This document shows, piece by piece, positions 35,794 to 54,431 of a stretch of 64,000 nt of DNA; the stretch's first letter is position 1; every line of letters starts with the position of its first letter. The notes below the pieces were generated by a model. That model did no database searches. It had not been told where the DNA came from and saw only the letters and a program-made list of their open reading frames with translations. Position numbers and translations under genes: made by a program. Location of the stretch: contig NZ_JALJRZ010000004.1 of the NCBI RefSeq assembly GCF_024519435.1, positions 124,001 to 188,000 of the forward strand, in the 5' to 3' direction. Source of the DNA: Terrabacter sp. Ter38 (lineage in GTDB: Bacteria > Actinomycetota > Actinomycetes > Actinomycetales > Dermatophilaceae).

Positions 35794-35862
35794 GTGACTG
35801 CGAGCCTCCTGCGGGTGCCGCGCCCGCGTCGGTGGACCGGACGCGCCCGGCGGGCGCGACCA

Positions 35863-35980
35863 GCGACGGGAGATGCCCTGGCTTCCGCCGACCGCGTGGT
35901 CGGAGGTTCACAGTGGCGGGACCGCTCCGGATTCGCACCGGATTCCTCTCCCAGTCGCCAGCGGCAGTCTGCCACGTCGC
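35863..35980 (-). ncRNA. Cobalamin riboswitch upstream of chlID operon
   Basis: On the minus strand: the GAATCCGG/TGCGAATCCGG element, then GCGGTCCCGCCACTGT, then the B12 box GGAAGCCAGGGCATCTC, closed by P1 pairing GCGACG (complement of 35975-35980) with CGTCGC (complement of 35863-35868). These are the conserved core elements of the class-I cobalamin aptamer. About 70 bases separate it from the ATG and include GC-rich hairpins (GCGCCCGCCGGGCGC; GCGGG...CCCGC) ending right before AGGAGG, so B12 probably blocks ribosome access. Confidence 0.92.
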
Positions 35981-37260: not shown

Positions 37261-37401
37261 CTGGTGTTCCTCCCCTGTCGCCATCTGGCTGCCAGCCGTC
37301 CCCCGACGACGTGCGATAAACATCATGGGGCCGAGGTGGGGCGTATCGGGCCGGAACGGTCATAACGAATGCCCCCGGATCGTCGCGCTAGGGTCGCCGC
37401 T

Positions 37402-38631
37402 GTGATCGAGGTGGTCGGCGTGGGTGCGTCCGGGCTGGAGTCCCTCGGCCCCGACGGCCGCCGGCTCGTCGACGAGGCCGAGGTCGTCGTCGGCGGTGAG
37501 CGGCATCTCGCGATGCTCGGGGTCCGTCCTGGCCGGCGCCTCGTGCCGTGGCCGTCGCCCTTGCTCCCGGCCCTGCAGCGCGTCCTCGACGACGTCGGCA
37601 CCGGTCGGGTCGTCGTGCTCGCGAGCGGGGACCCGCTCGTCTCGGGCATCGGGTCGACCCTCGTGCGCGAGCTGGGTGTCGACGCGGTGCGCATCCACCC
37701 CGGTGTCTCGTCGGTTGCCCTCGCCCGAGCCCGGATGCATTGGGCCGCAGAGGATTCCGATGTCGTAACCCTCCTGGGGCGTGACGTCGACCGGCTGCGC
37801 CGGGACCTGGCGCCGCGGGCCCGGCTCGTCGTGCTGACGTCGGGCGACGACGCCCCCGCACGCATCGCCTCGCTGCTCGTCGAGGAGGGGTATGCCGGCA
37901 GCCGGCTCACGGTGCTCGGTCACCTCGGTTCACCGGCGGAGTCGCGCATCGACGGGGTGGCCGCATCATGGGACGGCCGTCCCGCCCCTCGGCTGAGCCT
38001 CGTCTGCGTCGAGTGCGAGCCCCATCCCGAGCGGAGCCCGAGGTCGCTCGTGCCGGGACTCGACGAGACGGCATACGACCACGACGGGCAGCTGACGAAG
38101 CGCGTCGTGCGGGCGGCCGCGCTGGCCCACCTCGCCCCGCAGCCCGGCGACGTCATGTGGGACCTCGGCGCCGGCGCCGGGTCGGTCGGCATCGAGTTCG
38201 CACGGCAGCACCCGCGCAACGAGGTCCACTCGGTCGAGCGTGACCCGGAGCGGGCCGAGCGGGTGCGGCGCAATGCCCGTGCGCTCGGGGTGCCCGGGGT
38301 GCGGGTCGTCGAGGCGGCGTCGATCGGCGCGGTCGCGGAGCTGCCTCGTCCGGACGCCGTCTTCGTCGGCGGCGGAGCCACCGGCCCGCTGCTCGACGCG
38401 TGCTGGGCGGCGCTCGTGCCGGGGGGACGGCTCGTCGTCCACGGCGTCACGGTCGAGACCGAGGTGCTGCTCCACGAGGTGCGGGCGCGGTTCGGTGGAT
38501 CGATGACCCGGATCGCCGTCGAGGACCTCGACACGATCGGGTCGTTCCACGGCTGGAAGCCGGGGCGGTCGATCGTGCAATGGTCGGTGGAAAAACCGGT
38601 GACACAGACGGATTCGGAGACTGAGGCATGA
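37402..38631 (+). CDS. cobL: Precorrin-6B C5,15-methyltransferase (decarboxylating)
   Basis: 409 residues. The N-terminal half (1-200) is the CbiE-like tetrapyrrole methylase (IEVVGVGASGLESLGPDGRR, GGERHLAMLG, LASGDPLVSGIGSTL). The C-terminal half (about 210-400) is a CbiT-like SAM domain (ALAHLAPQPGDVMWDLGAGA, GSVGIEFAR, VFVGGGATGPLLDACW). It methylates C5 and C15 and decarboxylates the acetate on ring C. The GTG at 37402 is chosen because it begins the conserved strand and TAGGGT (37389-37394) lies 7 bases upstream as a leaderless -10 box. Confidence 0.93.
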   Translation: MIEVVGVGASGLESLGPDGRRLVDEAEVVVGGERHLAMLGVRPGRRLVPWPSPLLPALQRVLDDVGTGRVVVLASGDPLVSGIGSTLVRELGVDAVRIHPGVSSVALARARMHWAAEDSDVVTLLGRDVDRLRRDLAPRARLVVLTSGDDAPARIASLLVEEGYAGSRLTVLGHLGSPAESRIDGVAASWDGRPAPRLSLVCVECEPHPERSPRSLVPGLDETAYDHDGQLTKRVVRAAALAHLAPQPGDVMWDLGAGAGSVGIEFARQHPRNEVHSVERDPERAERVRRNARALGVPGVRVVEAASIGAVAELPRPDAVFVGGGATGPLLDACWAALVPGGRLVVHGVTVETEVLLHEVRARFGGSMTRIAVEDLDTIGSFHGWKPGRSIVQWSVEKPVTQTDSETEA

Positions 38632-39392
38632 CGGTCCACTTCATCGGTGCCGGCCCGGGTGCCGCCGACCTGCTGACGCTCCGCGCGGTGCGGCTCGTCG
38701 GGGAGGCGCAGGTGTGTCTCTATGCCGGCACCTACATCGGGTCGGAGGTGCTCGCGCACTGCCCCGAGGGAGCCGAGCTCGTCGACACCCAGCACCTCGA
38801 TCTCGACGCCATCACCGAGCACTGCGTCCGCGCGCACGCGGCCGGCCACGACGTGGCACGGCTGTGCTCCGGCGACCCGTCGCTCTACTCCGCCGTCGCC
38901 GAGCAGACCCGGCGGCTCGACCGCGCGGGGGTGCCGTGGGACGTGACGCCCGGCGTTCCCGCGTACGCCGCTGCTGCGGCCCTCATCGGTCGCGAGCTGA
39001 CGGTTCCGGAGGTCGCGCAGTCCGTCGTGCTGACCCGGGCGCACCGCGACTCGACGCAGATGCCCGAGACGGAGTCGCTCGCCCACTTCGCGCGGTCCCG
39101 GGCCACGCTCGTGCTGCACCTCGCGATACGCCGCACGCGCGAGCTCATGGCGTCTCTCGTCGGCGACTACGGGGACGACTGCCCCGTGGTCGTCGTCGCC
39201 GACGCCGAGCAGCCGGACCAGCTCGTGCTGCGCGGCACGCTGGCCGACATCGCCGACCAGGTCGAGGCCGCCGGACTGCGCCAGGCCGCGGTCATCCTCG
39301 TCGGACGCGCGCTCGCCGCGCGCGACACCGACGACTTCGTCGAGTCGCACCTCTACGGCACGCGGATCACCCGAAACACGCCGGGCGCCTAG
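38628..39392 (+). CDS. cobM: Precorrin-4 C11-methyltransferase
   Basis: 254 residues, overlapping the cobL stop by ATGA. Motifs of the CobM/CbiF family: VHFIGAGPGAADLLTLRAVR, CLYAGTYIGSEVLAHCP, RLCSGDPSLYSAVAEQTRRL, DVTPGVPAYAAAAALIGREL, ATLVLHLAIRRTRELM. It methylates C11 of precorrin-4 to give precorrin-5, the substrate of CobF encoded about 12 kb downstream. About 45 bases separate its stop from the P1 stem of the next riboswitch. Confidence 0.93.
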   Translation: MTVHFIGAGPGAADLLTLRAVRLVGEAQVCLYAGTYIGSEVLAHCPEGAELVDTQHLDLDAITEHCVRAHAAGHDVARLCSGDPSLYSAVAEQTRRLDRAGVPWDVTPGVPAYAAAAALIGRELTVPEVAQSVVLTRAHRDSTQMPETESLAHFARSRATLVLHLAIRRTRELMASLVGDYGDDCPVVVVADAEQPDQLVLRGTLADIADQVEAAGLRQAAVILVGRALAARDTDDFVESHLYGTRITRNTPGA

Positions 39393-39435
39393 GGTCCCCG
39401 TGGCGTGTTCGGACGGGCTGTGTCAGGATGCGAGT

Positions 39436-39597
39436 GCCGCAGTGCACGGGAAGTCGGTGTGATTCCGACGTGGTCCTCGCCACTGTGACCAGGGAGCAAG
39501 TCCCCACCATTCGCCACTGGTGACCTCAGGTTGACGCCGGGTCGCTGGGAAGGCTGGGGAGGCGTGACGATCTGGAAGCCAGGAGACCGGCTGCGGC
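39436..39597 (+). ncRNA. Cobalamin riboswitch upstream of cbtB
   Basis: Core elements in order: GGGAAGTCGGTGTGATTCCG, TGGTCCTCGCCACTGTGA, a long variable arm, and the B12 box TCTGGAAGCCAGGAGACCGG at 39571-39590. P1 is formed by GCCGCAG (39436-39442) and CTGCGGC (39591-39597). It ends 43 bases before the cbtB ATG, fitting B12 repression of cobalt uptake. TAGGGT at 39390-39395 could be the -10 box, overlapping the cobM stop. Confidence 0.92.
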
Positions 39598-39639
39598 GCG
39601 ATCTGTCCACGAGGCATGGAACGAAAGGGTCAATCTGCC

Positions 39640-41431: not shown

Positions 41432-42961
41432 TCACGGGACGAAGCGGGGGGTCCAGACCTGGCCGGCGCCGGTGCGGCGGGTGCCGGACGCGCAGACGAT
41501 GACGAGGCACTTCATGTCTATCGTCGCCGGGTCTAGGTCGGCGAGGGTCGTCACCGTGAGGGACTCCTCGGCTCGGCCGACGTCGCGACCCACGACGACG
41601 ACGGTGGCTGGGTCGCGTTCCTCGAGGAACACCTCGCGGGCGCGGGCCACCTGCTCGGTCCGGCTGCGTGAGGCGGGGTTGTAGAGAGCGACGACGAGGT
41701 CGGCCGACGCGGCGGCCCGCAGGCGCCTCTCGATGACGTGCCACGGCTTGAGCCGGTCGGAGAGCGACATGATGGCGAAGTCGCCGCCCAGGGGTGCGCC
41801 GGCTCGAGCCGCCACGGCCTGGGCTGCAGTGACTCCGGGTAGCACGCGCACGGGCACGTCGGTGTAGCCGTGCATCTCAGCCGCCTCGAAGACCGCCGAC
41901 GCCATGCCGAAGACTCCGGCGTCGCCACCGGAGACGACCGCGACCCGCTCGCCCTTGCGGGCCAGCTCGAGGGCGTCCCGGGCGCGGTCCACCTCGACCG
42001 TGTTGCCGGAGGCGTGACGGGTGAGGCCCTCGCGCTGCGGGACCCGGTTGACGTAGGGCGCGTAGCCGACGACGTGACCGACCTCGGCGAGCGCGACCGA
42101 CGCCTCCGGGGTGAGCCAGCGGTCGGGGCCGGGTCCGAGGCCGATGACGACGACCTCGCCCTGGGCGTCGTCCACCGGACCTTCTTGCGGGACAGCCAGA
42201 TCGCTGATGCCAGAGGATGCCGCACGCCCGGCCGCGTCGGCCCGCAGGTCGCGACCGGGGACGACGACCATCGACATGTACGGCACCGTCGAGGCGTCGA
42301 CCTCGGCGACGGGGAGCACCCGCTCGGCATCGGAGCTGGCCCGCTCGACGTAGCGCGCCTCGTCGAGCCGTCCGGCCTGGTGCAAGGCGTCGCGGACGTT
42401 CTCGAAGGTGCGGCCGAGCTTCATCACGACCGCAGCCTCGGTGTCGGCGAGCCGGCGCGCGAGCTCCGGCACCGGCAGCGTCCCGGGCAGGATGGTCAGC
42501 ACGTCCTCGTGCCGGCAGAGGCCGGTGGCAACGGCGGCCGCCGACCCGCTGACCGACGTGACACCCGGGACGACCGCGGTGTCGTAGCGGTCGGCGAGAC
42601 GGTCGTGGAGGTACATGTAGGTGCCGTAGAAGAGCGGGTCCCCCTCGGCGAGGACGACGACGTTGCGGCCCGAGTCCAGATGTGCGGCAAGGCGATCGGT
42701 CGACTCGTCGTAGAAGTCGGCCATGAGGCCGTGGTAGCCGAGTGGGTGGTCCGTCGCGCCGGTGGTGACGGGGTAGACGAGCAGCTCCTCGACGACTCCC
42801 TCACGGAAGTACGAGGCGGCGATGCGTCGGGCGATCGAGTCGCCCCGCGGCCCGCTGTGGAACGCGAGGACGTCGGCCTCGCCGATGAGCCGCGCGGCCT
42901 TGACCGTGACGAGCTCGGGGTCGCCCGGCCCGACGCCGACGCCGCGGAGCCAGCCGGTCAC
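41432..42961 (-). CDS. cobIJ: Fused precorrin-2 C20-methyltransferase / precorrin-3B C17-methyltransferase
   Basis: 509 residues from the GTG at 42961, overlapping the cobH stop (GTGA). Residues 1-245 are CobI: LRGVGVGPGDPELVTVKAAR, LAEGDPLFYGTYMYLHDRLA, PGVTSVSGSAAAVATGL. Residues 265-509 are CobJ: VVIGLGPGPDRWLTPEASVA, VGYAPYVNRVP, VSGGDAGVFGMASAVFEAAE, LPGVTAAQAVAARAGAPLGG, ALYNPASRSRTEQVARAREV. The fusion makes precorrin-3A, then after CobG ring-contracts to precorrin-4. Fused CobIJ is usual in actinobacteria. Confidence 0.95.
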   Translation of the reverse strand: MTGWLRGVGVGPGDPELVTVKAARLIGEADVLAFHSGPRGDSIARRIAASYFREGVVEELLVYPVTTGATDHPLGYHGLMADFYDESTDRLAAHLDSGRNVVVLAEGDPLFYGTYMYLHDRLADRYDTAVVPGVTSVSGSAAAVATGLCRHEDVLTILPGTLPVPELARRLADTEAAVVMKLGRTFENVRDALHQAGRLDEARYVERASSDAERVLPVAEVDASTVPYMSMVVVPGRDLRADAAGRAASSGISDLAVPQEGPVDDAQGEVVVIGLGPGPDRWLTPEASVALAEVGHVVGYAPYVNRVPQREGLTRHASGNTVEVDRARDALELARKGERVAVVSGGDAGVFGMASAVFEAAEMHGYTDVPVRVLPGVTAAQAVAARAGAPLGGDFAIMSLSDRLKPWHVIERRLRAAASADLVVALYNPASRSRTEQVARAREVFLEERDPATVVVVGRDVGRAEESLTVTTLADLDPATIDMKCLVIVCASGTRRTGAGQVWTPRFVP

Positions 42962-43626
42962 AGCTCCTCCTCGCGGGCCAGGGCGTTGACGGCAGCGGCC
43001 GCGAGGGCTGAGCCACCGCGCCGACCGTGCACGACGAGCCATGGGATGTCGAAGGGGTTGTCGGCCAGGGCGACCTTCGCCTCCGCGGAGCCGATGAAGC
43101 CGACGGGGATGCCGATGATGGCGGCCGGGCGCGGGCCACCGTCGGCGATGGTCTCGAGGAGGTGGAAGAGCGCCGTGGGCGCGTTGCCGATGGCGACCAC
43201 GGCGCCGTCGACCCGGTCGCCCCAGAGCGAGACGGCGGCCGCGGATCGCGTCGTGCCCCAAGCCTGTGCGAGAGCCGGAACCCGCTCGTCGCGCAGCGTG
43301 CAGACGACCTCGTTGTCGCGGGGCAGCCGGGCCCGGGTGATGCCGGAGGCGATCATGTGCGCATCGGTGAGGATGGGCGCACCGGACCGCAACACGGTCC
43401 GCGCGGCCGTGACGAGTCGGGGGTGCACGGCGATGTGCTCGGTGAGGTCGACGTCGCCACTCGCGTGCACCATGCGGACGACCACGACTCGGGCGTCCTC
43501 GGGAAGGTGGTCGAGCCGGGCCTCCCGCCGGATCGTCGCGAACGACCGGCGATAGATCTCCGCCCCGTCCGTGACGTAGTCGTAGCGGCGCGTCGGCGCC
43601 TGCCGTGTCTCGGTGGTCACGTCCAT
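42958..43626 (-). CDS. cobH: Precorrin-8X methylmutase
   Basis: 222 residues. CobH/CbiC motifs: YVTDGAEIYRRSFATIRREA, VVVRMVHASGDVDLTEHI with the catalytic His, ILTDAHMIASGITRARLP, VAIGNAPTALFHLLE, GIPVGFIGSAEAK. It moves a methyl group from C11 to C12 to give hydrogenobyrinic acid. Its ATG lies 10 bases inside the end of cobG and its stop overlaps cobIJ, forming a tight cobG-cobH-cobIJ unit. Confidence 0.95.
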   Translation of the reverse strand: MDVTTETRQAPTRRYDYVTDGAEIYRRSFATIRREARLDHLPEDARVVVVRMVHASGDVDLTEHIAVHPRLVTAARTVLRSGAPILTDAHMIASGITRARLPRDNEVVCTLRDERVPALAQAWGTTRSAAAVSLWGDRVDGAVVAIGNAPTALFHLLETIADGGPRPAAIIGIPVGFIGSAEAKVALADNPFDIPWLVVHGRRGGSALAAAAVNALAREEEL

Positions 43627-44757: not shown

Positions 44758-44785
44758 ATGCTAGGCCCGAGCCCGGCGAGGTCAA
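44758..44785 (-). promoter_or_regulatory. cobG-cobH-cobIJ promoter
   Basis: On the minus strand TTGACC (complement of 44780-44785), 16 bp, TAGCAT (complement of 44758-44763). The -10 box overlaps the ATG at 44759 and lies 7 bases before the in-frame GTG at 44750, the spacing seen at other apparent leaderless starts here. The promoter lies back-to-back with that of cobN. Confidence 0.55.
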
Positions 44786-44811
44786 GCCGGCCGTCCCGGG
44801 CTATGGTGGGG

Positions 44812-44917
44812 CCAGCGTCGTCGATCCAGGAACCCGGTGAGAATCCGGGACGGTCCCGCCACTGTGAGTCGCCACCCGTGAGGGAGGCGGTGAGTCAGGA
44901 ACTGCCGGCAGCGCTTC
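44812..44917 (+). ncRNA. Cobalamin riboswitch upstream of cobN
   Basis: CCAGGAACCCGGTGAGAATC, then GGGACGGTCCCGCCACTGTGA, a short arm, and the B12 box GAGTCAGGAACTGCC at about 44891-44905 are the aptamer core (outer limits approximate). After it, GCGGGG (44933-44938) can pair with CCCCGC (44947-44952) directly before the ribosome site GAGGAG of cobN, a likely expression platform. TATGGT at 44802-44807 is a plausible -10 box. Confidence 0.9.
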
Positions 44918-44964
44918 TCTTTCCTTTCGACCGCGGGGCGCGGACACCCCGCCGAGGAGTTCCA

Positions 44965-47900
44965 GTGACGCGCATCGCGCTGCTCTCGACGTCTGACACC
45001 GACCTGCTGTGTGCCCGCGGGAGCGGTGCCGACTACCTGGTCGCCAACCCTTCGCGTCCCGGACACACGTCCCTGGCCGAGGCCATCGAGGCTGCCGACA
45101 TCGTCGTGGCCCGCATCCTCGGCGGCCCCCAGGACCTCTGCGAGGGCTTCCGCCGGATCCGGGCCACGGACACGCCGATGGTCGTGCTCGGTGGCGAGCA
45201 GACCCCGCACGCCGCCCTCATGGAGCTCTCGACCGTCGCGCCCGGCGTCGTCGCCGAGGCCCATCGCTACCTCGCCGAGGGCGGCGCGGCCAACCTCCGG
45301 GAGCTGCACGCCTTCCTCGGCGACACGCTCCTCATGACGGGCGAGGGTTTCGAGCCACCCGTCACCCTGCCGACGTGGGGCGTCCTCGACCGCCCGGAGC
45401 CCCAGCCTGCGGCCGGGGGTGACCTCCGTCCTCGAGTCGGGATCCTCTTCTACCGGGCCCAGTTCGCCGCCGAGAACACCGCCTACGTCCACGCCCTCGC
45501 CGACGCCGTCGACGCGGCCGGAGGTGTCGGCGTGCCGGTCCACGTCTCGTCACTGCGCGACGCCCCCGCCGACCTGCTCGAGCACCTCACGGCATACGAC
45601 GTCCTCGTGACGACGGTGCTCGCAGCGGGCGGCACCAGGCCGGGCACGGCGAGCGCCGGCGAGGACGACGAGGCGTGGGACGTGCAGGCACTGGCCGCCC
45701 TCGACGTCCCGATCATCCAGGGCCTCTGCCTGACGTGGAGCCGCGACCAGTGGGACGCGAGCGACGACGGGATGAGCCCGCTCGACGTCGCGACGCAGGT
45801 CGCCGTGCCCGAGTTCGACGGCCGCATCATCGGAGGGGTCTTCTCCTTCAAGGAGACCGACGCCGACGGCCTGCCGCACTACGTGCCGGACCCCGAGCGT
45901 TGCGCGCGCCTCGCCACGCTCGCCGTCAACCACGCCCGCCTGCGCCACACCCCGCCGGCCGAGCGGCGGATCGCGGTCGTCCTGTCGGCCTACCCGTCCA
46001 AGCACTCGCGCATCGGCAACGCCGTCGGTCTCGACACGCCGGTCTCGATCATCCGGCTGCTGCGGGCGATGCGCGACGCCGGCTACGACCTCGGCGAGCC
46101 GGGCGAGATCCCCGGCACCGGGCCGCTCGAGCCGGTCGACGGCGAGTCGCCCGACACGACCGCGGGCAACGCCCTCATCCATGCCCTCATCGAGGCCGGT
46201 GGGCAGGACGAGGACTGGCTGACGCAGGCGCAGCTGAGCGGCCATCCGGTGCGCATCCCGGCCGCCCGCTACCGCGAGCACTTCGACGCGCTGCCCGACG
46301 GGCTGCGCGACGCCGTCACGAGGCACTGGGGCGCGGCGCCCGGCGAGGTCTTCGTCGACCGCCACACCGACCCCGACGGCGAGCTCGTCGCGGCGAGCAT
46401 CCGCGCCGGCAACGTCGTCGTCCTCGTCCAGCCCCCGCGCGGCTTCGGCGAGAACCCCATCGCGATCTACCACGACCCCGACCTCCCGCCGACCCACCAC
46501 TACCTCGCCGTCTACGACTGGCTCGCAAGGCAGTTCGGCGCCCACGCCGTCGTCCACATGGGCAAGCACGGCAACCTCGAGTGGCTGCCCGGCAAGAACC
46601 TCGCGCTGTCCGCCGCGTGTGGGCCCGACGCGACGATCGGCTCGATTCCCCTCGTCTACCCCTTCCTCGTCAACGACCCCGGCGAGGGCAGCCAGGCCAA
46701 GCGCCGCGCCCACGCGACGATCGTCGACCACCTCGTGCCCCCGATGGCGCGCGCCGAGTCCTACGGCGACATCGCCCGACTCGAGCAGCTGCTCGACGAG
46801 TACGGCAACGTCTCCGTCATGGACCCGGCCAAGGCGCCGGCCCTGCGCGCCGAGATCTGGACGCTCATCCAGTCCGCTCAGATGCACCACGACCTGGGGC
46901 TCGAGGACCGGCCCGACGACGATGCCTTCGACGAGTTCGTCATGCACGTCGACGGCTGGCTCTGCGAGGTCAAGGACGTCCAGATCAGGGACGGACTCCA
47001 TGTTCTTGGCGAGGCCCCCACGGGGGAGGGCCTCGCCAACCTCGTACTCGCGATCCTGCGGGCCAACCAGGTCTTCGCCGGTGCCGTGGGCGCCGTGCCG
47101 GGACTTCGGACGGCGCTCGGGTTGAGTGAGGGGCAATCCGAGCGCTCGTCCGTCGACGACGCCGAGGAGCAGGCGAGCGCACTCGTCGCCGCTCTCGCCG
47201 AGGCCGACTGGGACGAAGCCGCGGTGCCAGGCGTCGTGCGCGACCGGCTGGGCGCCGACCCGCAGGCAGACACCGATGGCGTATGCCGTTCCCTCGCGTT
47301 CGCGTGCCGCGAGGTCGTCCCGCGGTTGCGGGCGACGACGGGCGAGATCGACGCGGTGCTCCATGCGCTCGACGGCGGCTACGTCCCGGCCGGGCCCTCG
47401 GGGTCGCCCCTGCGCGGCCTCGTCAACGTGCTGCCGACCGGGCGCAACTTCTACTCCGTCGACCCGAAGGCGATCCCGAGCCGACTCGCCTGGGAGACCG
47501 GACAGCGCCTCGCGGATGACCTGCTCGCCCGGCACCGGGCCGACACGGGCGAGTGGCCGCGGTCGGTCGGTCTCTCGGTGTGGGGCACGTCGGCGATGCG
47601 CACGTCGGGCGACGACATCGCCGAGGTGCTGGCGCTCCTCGGCGTGCGCCCCCGCTGGGACGAGATGTCGCGCCGGGTCGTCGGGCTCGACGCCATCCCG
47701 CTCCCCGAGCTCGGCCGGCCGCGCATCGACGTCACGGTCCGCATCTCCGGCTTCTTCCGCGACGCCTTCCCGCACGTCATCGCCATGCTCGACGACGCCG
47801 TGCAGCTCGTGGCCGACCTCGACGAGTCCCCCGACGACAACTACCTCCGGGCCCACGTCGCCGGCGATCTCGCCGAGCACGGTGACGCCCGCCGCGCCAC

Positions 47901-48618
47901 GACCCGGATCTTCGGCAGCAAGCCCGGCTCCTACGGCGCCGGCATCCTCCCGCTCATCGAGTCGGGCAACTGGCGCTCGGACGCCGACCTCGCGGAGGTC
48001 TACGCGACGTGGGGCGGCTTCGCCTACGGGCGCGAGCTGGACGGCATACCTGCTCGGGCCGACATGGAGCGCACCTACGCGCGGATGGACGTCGCCGCCA
48101 AGAACATCGACACGCGCGAGCACGACATCGCCGACAGTGACGACTACTTCCAGTACCACGGCGGCATGGTCGCCACGGTCCGCGCGCTCACCGGGCGCGA
48201 GCCCAAGGCGTACGTCGGCGACTCCACGACGCCGGACGCGGTGCGCACCCGCAGCCTCACCGAGGAGACGGCGCGCGTCTTCCGGGCGCGGGTCGTCAAC
48301 CCGCGCTGGATCGCGGCGATGCGGCGGCACGGCTACAAGGGCGCGTTCGAGCTCGCGGCGACCGTCGACTACCTCTACGGCTTCGACGCGACGGCCGGGG
48401 TCGTGACCGACTGGATGTACGAGCAGCTCGCCCGGACCTACGTGCTCGACAAGGAGAACCGCGACTTCCTCCAGCACGCCAACCCGTGGGCGCTGCACGG
48501 CATGATCGAGCGGCTCCACGAGGCCGTCGACCGCGGCCTATGGGAGGAGCCGGACCCCCAACTGATGGCGGACCTCCAGCAGGTCTACCTCGACGTCGAG
48601 GGCGACCTCGAGGACTGA
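44965..48618 (+). CDS. cobN: Cobaltochelatase large subunit
   Basis: 1217 residues from the GTG at 44965 with GAGGAG five bases upstream. CobN/BchH-type landmarks: LLSTSDTDLLCARGSGADYL, LFYRAQFAAENTAYVHALAD, LSAYPSKHSRIGNAVGLDTP, VVHMGKHGNLEWLPGKNLAL, PFLVNDPGEGSQAKRRAHAT, WGTSAMRTSGDDIAEVLALL, FGSKPGSYGAGILPLIESGN. It inserts Co(II) into hydrogenobyrinic a,c-diamide using ATP with the fused ChlID subunit. Length is normal. Single-gene unit under its own riboswitch. Confidence 0.95.
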   Translation: MTRIALLSTSDTDLLCARGSGADYLVANPSRPGHTSLAEAIEAADIVVARILGGPQDLCEGFRRIRATDTPMVVLGGEQTPHAALMELSTVAPGVVAEAHRYLAEGGAANLRELHAFLGDTLLMTGEGFEPPVTLPTWGVLDRPEPQPAAGGDLRPRVGILFYRAQFAAENTAYVHALADAVDAAGGVGVPVHVSSLRDAPADLLEHLTAYDVLVTTVLAAGGTRPGTASAGEDDEAWDVQALAALDVPIIQGLCLTWSRDQWDASDDGMSPLDVATQVAVPEFDGRIIGGVFSFKETDADGLPHYVPDPERCARLATLAVNHARLRHTPPAERRIAVVLSAYPSKHSRIGNAVGLDTPVSIIRLLRAMRDAGYDLGEPGEIPGTGPLEPVDGESPDTTAGNALIHALIEAGGQDEDWLTQAQLSGHPVRIPAARYREHFDALPDGLRDAVTRHWGAAPGEVFVDRHTDPDGELVAASIRAGNVVVLVQPPRGFGENPIAIYHDPDLPPTHHYLAVYDWLARQFGAHAVVHMGKHGNLEWLPGKNLALSAACGPDATIGSIPLVYPFLVNDPGEGSQAKRRAHATIVDHLVPPMARAESYGDIARLEQLLDEYGNVSVMDPAKAPALRAEIWTLIQSAQMHHDLGLEDRPDDDAFDEFVMHVDGWLCEVKDVQIRDGLHVLGEAPTGEGLANLVLAILRANQVFAGAVGAVPGLRTALGLSEGQSERSSVDDAEEQASALVAALAEADWDEAAVPGVVRDRLGADPQADTDGVCRSLAFACREVVPRLRATTGEIDAVLHALDGGYVPAGPSGSPLRGLVNVLPTGRNFYSVDPKAIPSRLAWETGQRLADDLLARHRADTGEWPRSVGLSVWGTSAMRTSGDDIAEVLALLGVRPRWDEMSRRVVGLDAIPLPELGRPRIDVTVRISGFFRDAFPHVIAMLDDAVQLVADLDESPDDNYLRAHVAGDLAEHGDARRATTRIFGSKPGSYGAGILPLIESGNWRSDADLAEVYATWGGFAYGRELDGIPARADMERTYARMDVAAKNIDTREHDIADSDDYFQYHGGMVATVRALTGREPKAYVGDSTTPDAVRTRSLTEETARVFRARVVNPRWIAAMRRHGYKGAFELAATVDYLYGFDATAGVVTDWMYEQLARTYVLDKENRDFLQHANPWALHGMIERLHEAVDRGLWEEPDPQLMADLQQVYLDVEGDLED

Positions 48619-50977: not shown

Positions 50978-52354
50978 TCAGGCCGGGGTCTCTGGACTCA
51001 AGGCCTCGCGGGTCAGGCAGTAGTAGATCTCGTCGGAGCGGGTGCCGTCCGGGTTGGGCAGACGGCCGCTGAGCCGCCCCTCGGCCCGGAAGCCGGCCTT
51101 GGCGGCCACCCGGCCCGAGGCCTCGTTGCCCACCTTGTGGCCGAGCTCGAGCCGGGCGATTCCTGTCTCCTCGAGCGCCCACCGCGACACGAGTCGCAGG
51201 GCCCGGGTCGTGAAGCCGCGCCCCCGGAAGGCCGGGAGCACGCCGTAGCCGATGAGCCCCGTGCCGGGCGGTCCCATCCGCAGGACGCCGATGACGCCCG
51301 CACCCTCACCGGAGGCGGCGTCGACGACGACGAACCGCGCCGCCCGCCCGCGGCGCCACTCGAGCGTGGCCGAGGCCGCCCTGCGGCGCGCCTCGTCGTC
51401 GGTCAGCGGCTGGCCCGCGAAGTCCCAGCGCAGCGACTCCTCGTTGTTGTGCTCGTCCCGCACCGTCTCCCAGTCGGCAGCGGTCATGCGCCGCAGCGTG
51501 ACGACTCCGTCGGTCAGCGGCTCCGTCTGCGGGAAGGGGCTCGGGCGGGGGCCGGTCGGCGCGTCCGCCGGCGGCCGGAGCAGGTAGGTGTCCATGACCC
51601 AGCCGTGGCGCTCGCGGGCCTCGGCGCGCAGGCGCCGCACCTCGCCGACGACGTCGGCGAGACGTCCGTGCACGAGCAGCTCGTCGGGCGTGCCGAGGTA
51701 GGCGCCCCACCAGAGCTCGAGGTCGGGGAACGCGCCCGCGAGCTCGGCGCACGCGAGGTGCCCGTCGAGCATGACGACGACGTCACCGAGCGAGGGGTCG
51801 TACTCGTCGAGGAGCCGCCGGCCGGTCGTGATGTGGATCGGCGCGCCGATCCGGTTGAGCGGGATGCGGTGCCGCGCGGCGAGCAGCTGCGGCGCGCTGA
51901 TCCCGGCGATGACGTCGTGCTCGACGGTGAGCCCTGCTGCGGCGTACCGCTCGACGAGCGCGTCGACGACCCGGATCGTCGAGTCGTAGAAGGCCGGGTC
52001 GCCCCACACGAGGAAGCCGACCGTGGTCTCGCCGTCGTGGAGCCCGTCGATGACGTCGGCGTACGCGTCCACGCGCGCCGCGTGCCAGTCGCGCACCCCG
52101 CGGTCGTATGCCGTCGCGTCGCGTTCGGCGTCCGGCCCCCGTGGCGGGTCGGTGACCTCCACGACGCGGTACGGGTGCGCGGAGGGGATGAGCGTGTCGC
52201 ACACGGCCTGCCGGGCGGCGACGAGATCGGACTTCGCCTCGCCCTTGTCGGCCACGAGGAAGACGTCGACGGTGGCCAGCGCGCGGGCCGCCTCGCCGGT
52301 CACGTGCCCCGGGTCGCCCATGCCGATCCCGATGACACGGATGCGCTCGATCAT
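50978..52354 (-). CDS. cobF: Precorrin-6A synthase (deacetylating) fused to a GNAT acetyltransferase
   Basis: 458 residues in one uninterrupted frame. Residues 1-262 are CobF: IRVIGIGMGDPGHVTGEAAR, VFLVADKGEAKSDLVAARQA, LVWGDPAFYDSTIRVVD, VIAGISAPQLLAARHRIPLN, ending HGWVMDTYLLR. A Pro-rich linker (263-279) leads to a RimJ/RimL-like GNAT domain (280-450): GVVTLRRMTAADWETVRDEH, GVIGVLRMGPPGTGLIGYGV, LPAFRGRGFTTRALRLVSRW, ARLELGHKVGNEASGRVAAK. CobF methylates precorrin-5 at C1 with loss of acetate; the GNAT substrate is unknown. Overlaps the cobQ stop by 4 bases. Confidence 0.92.
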   Translation of the reverse strand: MIERIRVIGIGMGDPGHVTGEAARALATVDVFLVADKGEAKSDLVAARQAVCDTLIPSAHPYRVVEVTDPPRGPDAERDATAYDRGVRDWHAARVDAYADVIDGLHDGETTVGFLVWGDPAFYDSTIRVVDALVERYAAAGLTVEHDVIAGISAPQLLAARHRIPLNRIGAPIHITTGRRLLDEYDPSLGDVVVMLDGHLACAELAGAFPDLELWWGAYLGTPDELLVHGRLADVVGEVRRLRAEARERHGWVMDTYLLRPPADAPTGPRPSPFPQTEPLTDGVVTLRRMTAADWETVRDEHNNEESLRWDFAGQPLTDDEARRRAASATLEWRRGRAARFVVVDAASGEGAGVIGVLRMGPPGTGLIGYGVLPAFRGRGFTTRALRLVSRWALEETGIARLELGHKVGNEASGRVAAKAGFRAEGRLSGRLPNPDGTRSDEIYYCLTREALSPETPA

Positions 52355-53868
52355 GCCGTGGCTCCCATCCGGGTGAAGGACAGGAGGGCGTCGATGTCGA
52401 CGTGCTCCTCGAGGGCGTCGGCCAAGGTGTCGAGCATCCGCTCGCGCCGCCCCGCGAAGCCCGGGGCGCCGGCATGGGGCCGCCACTGGGACCCTGCCAC
52501 GAGGGCGACCTGGGCGAGCCAGGCTCGACGGAAGTCGTCGCTCTCGAAGGCGCCGTGCCACATGGTGCCCCACACCTGGTCGACGTTCCAGCCGTCGAGG
52601 AAGCCCTGCGCTGCAGGCGAGTCCGCGGTCGCGGGCTGCCCGTCGGGCAGCCGTCGGGCGATGCCGTGGTGGATCTCGTAGGCCGTGTCCACGGTGTGGT
52701 GGCCCCACGACCCCTCGGGCCGCGCCAGCACCTTCGACTCGCCGAACTCGACCCGCACGGGCAGGTGCCCGAGGCCGCGCACGACCCCCACGCGGCCCTC
52801 GACGTCGTCCTCGATCTCGTGCCCGAGCATCTGGTACCCGCCGCACACGCCGAGCACCGGACGCCCGGCTGCGACGCGGCGGCCGACGACCTCATCGAGA
52901 CCGCGCTCACGCAGCCACTCGAGATCGCTTGCCGTCGAACGGGATCCGGGCAGGACCAGGAGGTCGGCGGCCTCGGCGACGGCCGGGTCGATCGTCACGA
53001 GGACGTCGACGCCGGGTTCGGCAGCCAGGGCGTCGACGTCGGTGGCGTTCGAGATGCGGGGCAGCCGGATGACAGCCACCTTGAGCCGGTCGCGAGACGT
53101 GGCGGACAGGGCGGTCGAGGCCCTCCAGTGACCGACCTCGAGGGTGTCCTCGCTGTCGAGCCACACGTCGAGCAACCACGGGATGACGCCGTGGAAGGGC
53201 ACGCCCGTGCGGTCCGTGATGGCGTCAAGCCCCGGCTCCAGCACGGACACGTCCCCGCGGAACTTGTTGATGACGAAGGACTTGAGCAGCGCGCGGTCGT
53301 CGTCGTCGAGCAGGGCCCACGTGCCGTACAGCGAGGCGAGGATGCCGCCGCGGTCGATGTCACCGACGACGACGACCGGCAGGCCGAACTCGCGGGCCAG
53401 GCCCATGTTGACGTAGTCGCCCGAGCGGAGGTTGATCTCAGCGGGGGAGCCGGCGCCCTCGCACACGACGAGCTCGTACGCGTCGGCGAGCTCGCGGTAG
53501 GCCGCGAACGCGGCGTCGGCCAGGTGGGCCCGCCCGGCGGCATACTGCCCCGCCTCGAGCGTTCCGGCCGGTTCGCCCCGCACGACGATGAACGACCGGC
53601 GGTCGGTGCCCGGCTTGAGCAGGACTGGGTTCATCGCCGTGGTCGGCTCGACCCGGGCCGCGACGGCCTGGAGCCACTGCGCCCGGCCGATCTCGCCTCC
53701 GTCGAGGCAGACCATCGAGTTGTTCGACATGTTCTGCGCCTTGAACGGGGCGACCCGCACCCCACGGCGCGCGAGGGCGCGGCACAGTCCGGCGACGATG
53801 ACGGACTTGCCGGCGTCGGACGACGTGCCGGCGACGAGGAGGCCGGAGGGGGCGGCGGGCGTGGGCAC
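52351..53868 (-). CDS. cobQ: Cobyric acid synthase
   Basis: 505 residues from the GTG at 53868 (AGGA seven bases upstream). N-terminal ATPase: LLVAGTSSDAGKSVIVAGLC, VAPFKAQNMSNNSMVCLDGG, VVVGDIDRGGILASLYGTWA, SFVINKFRGDVSVLEPG. C-terminal glutamine amidotransferase: nucleophile PVLGVCGGYQMLGHEIEDDV and GTMWHGAFESD with the catalytic His. It performs the four amidations that convert adenosylcobyrinic diamide to cobyric acid. It is first in a two-gene unit with cobF; no riboswitch lies in the 56-bp leader. Confidence 0.95.
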   Translation of the reverse strand: MPTPAAPSGLLVAGTSSDAGKSVIVAGLCRALARRGVRVAPFKAQNMSNNSMVCLDGGEIGRAQWLQAVAARVEPTTAMNPVLLKPGTDRRSFIVVRGEPAGTLEAGQYAAGRAHLADAAFAAYRELADAYELVVCEGAGSPAEINLRSGDYVNMGLAREFGLPVVVVGDIDRGGILASLYGTWALLDDDDRALLKSFVINKFRGDVSVLEPGLDAITDRTGVPFHGVIPWLLDVWLDSEDTLEVGHWRASTALSATSRDRLKVAVIRLPRISNATDVDALAAEPGVDVLVTIDPAVAEAADLLVLPGSRSTASDLEWLRERGLDEVVGRRVAAGRPVLGVCGGYQMLGHEIEDDVEGRVGVVRGLGHLPVRVEFGESKVLARPEGSWGHHTVDTAYEIHHGIARRLPDGQPATADSPAAQGFLDGWNVDQVWGTMWHGAFESDDFRRAWLAQVALVAGSQWRPHAGAPGFAGRRERMLDTLADALEEHVDIDALLSFTRMGATA

Positions 53869-53924
53869 CTGACCATCCTGCCGGACGACCCCGTCATGCC
53901 ACCCGACGGTCCTACGCTGCACAC

Positions 53925-54431
53925 ATGCAGCTGCGCCCGGTCGACGACGCCAACCCGGTCCAACGCGCCCTACGGTCCGTCGTCGCCTCCCGGCCGGGTG
54001 CGTGGGTCTCGAAGCGCGTGCTCCACCGGCTCGACCTGCTGGCCCACCGGCTCGCGCCCGGACGGACGCTGCCGAGCCAGTGGCTCGCCGCCGTGCCCGT
54101 CGGGATGCTGACGACGACGGGGGCACGGTCAGGGCAGCCCCGCACCGTGCCGCTCATGCTCGCGCCGCTCGACGACGGGTGGGGCGTCATCGCCTCCCGC
54201 TACGGCTCGGCGACACCGCCGGCGTGGTACTTCAACCTCCGCGCGCACCCGCAGGCCTCGCTCGAGGTCGACGGTGTCGTGCACCGCGTGCGGGCCGAGC
54301 AGGTGCAGGGGCCGGACAAGGAGCGCGTGCGTGAGGCGGCGCTCGAGTACTACCGCGGCTACACGGCCTACGAGGAACGCGCCGGCGGGCGCGACCTCGG
54401 CTTCTTCGTGCTGCACCCCGAGCGCGACTGA
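53925..54431 (+). CDS. Ddn-family nitroreductase (F420-type)
   Basis: 168 residues. MLTTTGARSGQPRTVPLMLA, VIASRYGSATPPAWYFNLRA and HPQASLEVDG are the signature of the deazaflavin (F420)-dependent nitroreductase/Ddn split-barrel family. Such enzymes reduce quinones or xenobiotics in the cytosol or at the membrane. TACGCT (53913-53918), six bases before the ATG, suggests a leaderless start. Divergent from cobQ. Confidence 0.88.
   Translation: MQLRPVDDANPVQRALRSVVASRPGAWVSKRVLHRLDLLAHRLAPGRTLPSQWLAAVPVGMLTTTGARSGQPRTVPLMLAPLDDGWGVIASRYGSATPPAWYFNLRAHPQASLEVDGVVHRVRAEQVQGPDKERVREAALEYYRGYTAYEERAGGRDLGFFVLHPERD

Follow-up and report, generated by a model that had tools for sequence, protein, structure and literature searches.

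In-frame fusion of the cobalamin-pathway gene cobF to a GNAT acetyltransferase domain in Terrabacter and related genera

CobF, the precorrin-6A synthase, is represented by the family model TIGR02434 and the structures 3nd1 and 2npn. Amino acids 1-260 of the protein described here reach the cut-off of this model and are encoded in a cob cluster, but unfused named CobFs (70 read) end no more than 20 aa past the CobF match, whereas this protein adds a GNAT of about 180 aa. The added part matches the full Acetyltransf_3 profile and shows, according to Foldseek, the same fold as RimJ/RimL-type GNATs (1nsl, RimL 1s7n and the M. smegmatis RimJ 6c30), from which it differs in having CobF as its N-terminal partner. 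Tandem GNAT-GNAT proteins (loci L267-L275) carry C-terminal GNATs 37-44% identical to the fused one and a Pro-rich linker of modest likeness; their N-terminal domain is a second GNAT, whereas that of the fusion is CobF, and the fusion is thus not a two-GNAT protein. Mycothiol synthase MshD, whose C-terminal GNAT is likewise preceded by a partner domain (excerpt of PMC4964394), offers a works-like analogy only, and no MshD model was among the profile matches of the window protein. Gene fusion within the B12 pathway is likewise seen in BluB/CobT2, and Terrabacter sp. DSM102553 was found through its bluB/cobT2 fusion (excerpt of PMC10038948); BluB and CobT2, however, act in succession on DMBI, whereas CobF and the GNAT seem to have no common pathway. 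The architecture combines known parts in a new way, and no report of a CobF-GNAT fusion was present among the literature matches listed, which consisted of titles and abstract openings, with most subscription journals lying outside.

The window is the whole stretch of DNA that was analysed, 64,000 nucleotides from Terrabacter sp. Ter38 (contig NZ_JALJRZ010000004.1, positions 124,001 to 188,000). The fusion gene and its parts are located in it as follows.

50978..52354, minus strand: cobF-GNAT fusion gene, 458 aa plus stop (profile matches; frame open in 9/9 genomes of the genus)
51575..52354, minus strand: CobF (precorrin-6A synthase) domain, aa 1-260 (TIGR02434, 2npn/3nd1, AF2 model)
51977..52006, minus strand: CobF motif WGDPAFYDST, aa 117-126 (damaged in genomes G048, G059, G049 and G050)
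51518..51574, minus strand: Pro-rich linker, aa 261-279 (alignment; modestly similar to the linker between the two domains of tandem GNATs)
51005..51517, minus strand: GNAT (Acetyltransf_3, RimJ/RimL-like), aa 280-450 (PF13302, Foldseek)
51209..51226, minus strand: acetyl-CoA pyrophosphate loop (P-loop) R377-G-R-G-F-T382 (alignment of 15 fused proteins)

The fusion gene begins with an ATG at 52354 and its stop codon ends at 50978. A plus-strand frame over 50978-52354 is also open; it does not begin with a start codon and was set aside. Compared with TIGR02434, the window protein yielded 288.3 bits (curated cut-off 195.8), with aa 4-260 aligned to positions 2-249 of the 250 in the profile, and the solved relatives of this half were 2npn (E 4.2e-52) and 3nd1 (E 3.3e-51). 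All 50 columns conserved in 35 CobFs are kept (50/50), and nothing else in the genome scores above the TIGR02434 cut-off. In the AF2 model of the fusion (mean pLDDT 89.4) the CobF half matched 3nd1 with a TMt of 0.88, on a slightly noisy basis, because the N-terminal 63-73 residues of 14 stand-alone GNAT rows in the input alignment fell under CobF columns. Regarding the GNAT half, PF13302 yielded 80.9 bits (cut-off 25.4; aa 285-423, profile positions 2-138 of 138) and PF00583 41.5 bits, and Foldseek matched RimL, RimJ and SpeG structures; the scores stayed far below the equivalog cut-offs of PRK10151 (RimL, 31.3 vs 184) and PRK10809 (RimJ, 18.0 vs 190). Six further fused proteins were scanned, all of which passed PF13302 (6/6), with PF00583 listed at 1e-6 in four of the six.

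The P-loop consensus of GNATs is Gln/Arg-x-x-Gly-x-Gly/Ala (excerpt of PMC4964394). Among the 15 fused proteins the first place is occupied by Arg in 14 (Ser in G003) and the fourth by Gly in all, G378-R-G380 being invariant (15/15); the last place is Thr in 14 and Ala in one, where the consensus of that excerpt has Gly or Ala. An earlier reading of the window from its letters alone (the sequence-only reading) had described a single frame that encodes a complete CobF, then a Pro-rich linker and a complete RimJ/RimL-like GNAT, which the profile matches bear out. It had also proposed an alignment check of the acetyl-CoA motif of the GNAT, by which the loop is near-consensus and departs in its last place.

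The surroundings of the fusion gene in the window are a cobalamin cluster with the following members.

52351..54126, minus strand: cobQ (cobyric acid synthase), upstream of the fusion (NF001989, 583 bits, aa 96-584)
45262..48561, plus strand: CobN cobaltochelatase domain (PF02514, 1321.6 bits), same cob cluster
42973..43560, minus strand: CbiC/CobH (PF02570, 239.6 bits), same cob cluster
41432..43261, minus strand: CobI and CobJ methyltransferases in a single ORF, aa 101-337 and 370-606 (NF004647 and TIGR01466, above cut-off)
37369..39392, plus strand: CobL (CbiE-CbiT) and CobM, same cob cluster
44780..44923, plus strand: cobalamin riboswitch upstream of the cobN domain (Rfam RF00174)
39423-39609, plus strand: cobalamin riboswitch (Rfam RF00174)
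35851-35971, minus strand: cobalamin riboswitch (Rfam RF00174)

CobK, cobA and cbiB are also present, and the CobM match lies barely over its cut-off (259.8 vs 259.65). The stop of cobQ overlaps the start of the fusion by 4 nt, as ATGA, and a GGAG precedes the cobF start. The true start of cobQ lies inside the ORF 52351..54126, because the NF001989 match spans aa 96-584. The three cobalamin riboswitches span about 9 kb. None adjoining cobQ/cobF-GNAT was detected at the gathering score in the window or in the loci L191, L192, L224 and L226.

The fusion occurs in 9/9 genomes of the genus, with the other eight proteins 80-96% identical to that of the window, and in 15 of the 186 family genomes, 84 of which have a CobF over 1e-40. 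The carriers are the nine members of the genus, G047 and G048 (both from one other genus), G107 (I. flavum), G049 (Intrasporangium calvum), G050 (PheN6) and G059 (a MAG); 11 of these 15 carry it intact and as their sole CobF at 1e-40. This GNAT, at an identity of at least 61%, was found in 15 family genomes and was fused to CobF in all of them (15/15). The architecture was read in 68 of the 84 CobF-bearing family genomes, and the remaining 16 (G040, G060, G061, G063, G065-G071, G073, G075, G098, G143, G183) were judged by the absence of the GNAT at 1e-20. Humibacillus, I. chromatireducens and G178 have CobF alone, without this GNAT at E 1e-20; relatives with separate genes had been named in the sequence-only reading as a possible refutation of the fusion, and these do not refute it. 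The search for the CobF+GNAT architecture that it had suggested was positive within the family, but in a class sample of 394 genomes it gave no case among the 143 others that bear CobF (1e-35, four candidates per genome, alignments running beyond CobF through stop codons, e.g. in G888 with two stops, being uncounted). Among the best 80 of the 198 named CobF loci, nine are fused (L053-L061), 70 end no more than 20 aa after the CobF match and one (L116) is cut by a contig end.

No stand-alone donor of the GNAT was found in the family (186 genomes, 1e-20, 18 candidates per genome), which yielded 15 fused matches and three unfused ones at 36-38%, or in the order (396 genomes, 1e-25, 8 candidates per genome), which yielded three matches, all fused. 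The scan of the class (374 genomes, 1e-18, 9 first-look candidates per genome scored) gave matches in 51 genomes besides that of the window, at identities of 33-49% with the higher values over part of the domain, and a best unfused E of 2.4e-29; copies in any of the three scans could be missed. The nine best unfused class matches (37-44% identity) are all C-terminal domains of two-GNAT proteins. In a midpoint-rooted tree of 45 GNAT domains the 15 fused rows form one clade (100/99), which a 100/98 branch places together with the tandem C domains and apart from the tandem N domains, although three long-branched single GNATs fall there as well. A Pro-rich linker before the GNAT is common to fusions and tandem GNATs, but single GNATs share its last letters, and the 'DGVV' start is found in them too. 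Because the nearest unfused GNATs found are C-terminal domains of tandem proteins, CobF may have taken the place of the N-terminal GNAT in a tandem GNAT protein, an origin to which we give about an even chance.

The fusion was probably made once. The copies of G059, G049 and G050 cluster in both halves, with 99/92 in the tree of GNAT domains and 97/94 in a smaller CobF tree. A single clade of fused CobF halves was not rejected (p-AU 0.286, or 0.309 without G049, G050 and G059), and free CobF trees require two label changes between fused and unfused. Humibacillus and G178 have an unfused cobF in the same slot as the fusion; the rpoB tree, built without G059 and G026 (rpoB absent or partial), did not resolve the branching order with these two, i.e. 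whether they represent the state before the fusion or have lost the GNAT. The tandem GNAT-GNAT proteins of L267-L275 measure about 370 aa and come from other actinobacterial families. Two of these loci, L268 (G728) and L269 (G637), have at about 1-2040 two adjacent ORFs with two GNAT-like stretches each, i.e. four RimJ/RimL-like domains, the first of the two ORFs being cut by the locus start.

The fate of the two halves can be compared in G047 and G048, which belong to the same genus. CobN, CbiC and 10 TP_methylases are present in G047, whereas CobN and CbiC were not found in the genome of G048 by profile search, and of its five TP_methylases the fifth is the fusion; the other four appear, by score and spacing, to pair with non-cob genes of G047. 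The fusion of G048 retains its slot between the same neighbours. Its CobF half has WGDAVLDDPT in place of WGDPALYDST, keeps 43 of the 50 conserved columns, just below the lowest leave-one-out value (46/53) of 35 CobFs taken as functional, and scores 197.5 bits against TIGR02434, 1.7 over the cut-off of 195.8. Regarding the columns invariant in the 11 intact fusions (156 in the CobF half and 70 in the GNAT half), G048 keeps 119/156 and 69/70, respectively. Between G047 and G048 the N/S counts are 102/71 in the CobF half and 14/36 in the GNAT half (Fisher p = 1.8e-4), corresponding to a dN/dS of 0.45 for CobF and 0.11 for the GNAT. The CobF excess of G048 reaches p<0.05 versus G047 only, i.e. 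one of the 11 intact fusions; its presence versus G047 alone and its absence versus the 10 more distant fusions are expected if the decay is recent. The cobQ of G048 corresponds to the ORF L224:12741-13838 (+) and lacks about 140 internal codons without loss of frame, as in a pathway caught mid-decay.

I. calvum (G049) and PheN6 (G050) have an intact unfused cobF (284.5 and 295.7 bits) that adjoins cobQ and cobN, and their fusions sit elsewhere. On one flank the I. calvum fusion has the neighbours of the Terrabacter slot (a PadR-type gene plus three others) but has lost cobQ; in PheN6 the PadR flank lies past the contig end. B12 genes are not wholly distant from these fusions, since a cbiB-like gene is found about 6 kb away in both, in I. 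calvum on the opposite flank. The fused CobF halves yielded 106.7 (G049) and 86.7 bits (G050), below the TIGR02434 cut-off of 195.8, and keep 29/50 and 27/50 of the conserved columns; of the invariant columns 71/156 and 59/156 are kept in the CobF half and 64/70 in the GNAT half of both. Between G049 and G050 the fused CobF half has N/S counts of 166/82; the GNAT half, at 53/62, differs from it with p = 2.1e-4, and the free CobF, at 45/70, with p = 7.6e-7. A CobF excess at p<0.05 was seen versus 10 of the 11 intact fusions for G049 and versus all 11 for G050. Both decayed halves are full-length and in frame, with a dN/dS of 0.69, and AF2 gave a CobF fold for that of I. calvum (mean pLDDT of the block about 73; TMt against 3nd1 0.77) from an alignment whose 11 rows besides the two decayed ones, intact CobFs among them, pull the model towards CobF. 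In the cob clusters of the two genomes (L228, L229) cobN adjoins cobF-cobQ. In the CobN tree I. calvum and PheN6 join I. chromatireducens with 99/97 and are separate from Terrabacter, Humibacillus and G178; unlike the CobN tree, the CobF trees place their free copy with G178. The cob cluster of I. calvum and PheN6 may have been replaced or rearranged.

As a control, the 55 pairs of the 11 intact fusions, all of which keep 50/50 conserved CobF columns, were counted in the same way. An odds ratio above 1 was found in three of them (none with p<0.05), these being the closest pairs with few differences, and an odds ratio below 1 with p<0.05 in nine. A relaxed CobF half thus accompanies the dispensability of CobF, as no control pair of intact fusions shows a significant excess. 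All N/S values are Nei-Gojobori estimates, which ignore transition bias and codon use, and the pairs share genomes and are non-independent. Each of the 17 pairs counted gave the GNAT half a dN/dS within 0.11-0.46; in four of the five pairs counted inside the genus, its identity was lower than that of the CobF half. G059 keeps 40/50 CobF columns and, of the invariant ones, 116/156 in the CobF half and 60/70 in the GNAT half; its CobF half yielded 198.8 bits (cut-off 195.8), and a CobF excess at p<0.05 was seen in 0 of its 11 pairs with intact fusions. It has a full-length cobQ, and the absence of CobN and CbiC proves little in this MAG, because it is 81% complete and rpoB is absent too. Among the genomes with intact fusions, CobN and CbiC were checked in G000, G047 and G107, the methylases also in G008, and CobN also in four named Terrabacter-type loci.

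From these data it seems likely that the fusion consists of two functionally independent enzymes in one chain, probably made once. In the ancestor of the Terrabacter/Intrasporangium calvum group, cobF would have been joined in frame to a GNAT domain. Where the fusion is the sole CobF (Terrabacter, I. flavum, G047), the intact CobF half would perform the expected ring-contraction step. The CobF half of the window protein is most likely active, since it is the sole CobF match in the genome and one Terrabacter strain makes B12: Terrabacter sp. DSM102553 does so in minimal medium, and a second Terrabacter strain tested made none (excerpt of PMC10038948; both strains are unmatched to the genomes compared here). 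The GNAT half would use acyl-CoA on an acceptor outside the products of corrin synthesis, because it is conserved without the pathway (G048) or beside a separate cobF (G049, G050). In G048, I. calvum and PheN6 the CobF half would be decaying by substitution while staying in frame. A scan of 15 genes, between 35 codons upstream and 11 codons downstream of the GNAT start, found no in-frame start preceded by one of six SD-like words; the scan is crude, and weak starts without an SD exist. Because no such internal start was found and the cobF start of the window has its GGAG, the GNAT most likely depends on the start of CobF, and this dependence alone can keep the CobF half in frame. Perhaps the CobF fold also serves the GNAT as an N-terminal scaffold.

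That two genes were joined by sequencing or assembly has next to no probability and is already refuted: the joint is open in 9/9 genomes of the genus, in 15 family genomes in all and in nine named records (L053-L061). With the frame open in the genus and in six more genomes of the family, the fusion is neither an assembly error nor chance, and the frameshift or missed stop at the joint that would have spoken against the sequence-only reading was not found. It is very improbable that the GNAT is degenerate and functionless, carried along by CobF. Such a GNAT would agree with the lower identity in four of five genus pairs, with the significantly greater change of the GNAT in 9/55 intact pairs and with the Thr that ends the P-loop in 14/15 proteins in place of the Gly or Ala of the excerpted consensus, but the GNAT dN/dS values of 0.11-0.46 in all 17 pairs, the difference between the halves in G047-G048 (0.11 vs 0.45) and the invariant G378-R-G380 (15/15) argue for constraint. 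A role of the GNAT in B12 synthesis, where it would acetylate a corrin intermediate or a Cob enzyme or re-use the acetate of CobF, is improbable, although the fusion is intact and the sole CobF at 1e-40 in 11/15 genomes, overlaps cobQ by 4 nt in the window, belongs to a CobF family named 'deacetylating' and has a cbiB-like gene about 6 kb away in I. calvum and PheN6. The substrate of a GNAT is acyl-CoA, not acetate; G025, G051 and G178 have CobN and CbiC yet lack this GNAT; and the domain is kept and constrained both in G048, without CobN, CbiC and paired cob methylases, and beside a separate intact cobF in G049 and G050. Both the link to acetate released by CobF and the proposal of corrins or Cob proteins as acceptors, put forward from the sequence alone, are unsupported for this last reason, and the option of a chance fusion kept for co-expression comes close to the reading favoured here.

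A further possibility, to be regarded as tentative, is that the GNAT needs a non-catalytic CobF fold as scaffold, dimeriser or ligand-sensing domain, the decayed copies being pseudoenzymes. This is a variant of two independent enzymes in one chain, and the two overlap. It is consistent with the constant association of the GNAT with a CobF half (15/15), with the full-length, in-frame decayed halves of I. calvum and PheN6, whose dN/dS of 0.69 is below 1, and with the CobF fold given by AF2 for the former (TMt 0.77 to 3nd1); the nine closest unfused GNATs also bear an N-terminal partner domain, and of the two GNATs of MshD the C-terminal one alone is considered active (excerpt of PMC4964394). Start-codon dependence alone, however, accounts for the retention of the frame, a dN/dS below 1 may reflect earlier constraint, and the 11 other rows of the AF2 alignment pull the model towards CobF. 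That the CobF fold was recruited as the N-terminal partner of the GNAT, replacing an N-terminal GNAT, and became a pseudoenzyme where the CobF reaction was dropped, is possible but doubtful.

On the preferred reading of two independent enzymes in one chain, the fusion provides a natural test of how joining two genes alters the fate of the halves, since among related species that do or do not need the fused CobF one half decays in place while the other stays constrained; the partners in a fusion can thus belong to different pathways. It also represents a warning against 'Rosetta stone' inference, as the fusion points to acetylation of corrins whereas the genomic evidence argues against this. 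The fused I. calvum protein could be misannotated as a precorrin-6A synthase, even though its score lies below the CobF cut-off and another cobF is present in the genome. If the scaffold role of the CobF fold is true, an enzyme of an intact pathway would have come to serve as a structural or sensory domain, and related species would still show both states.
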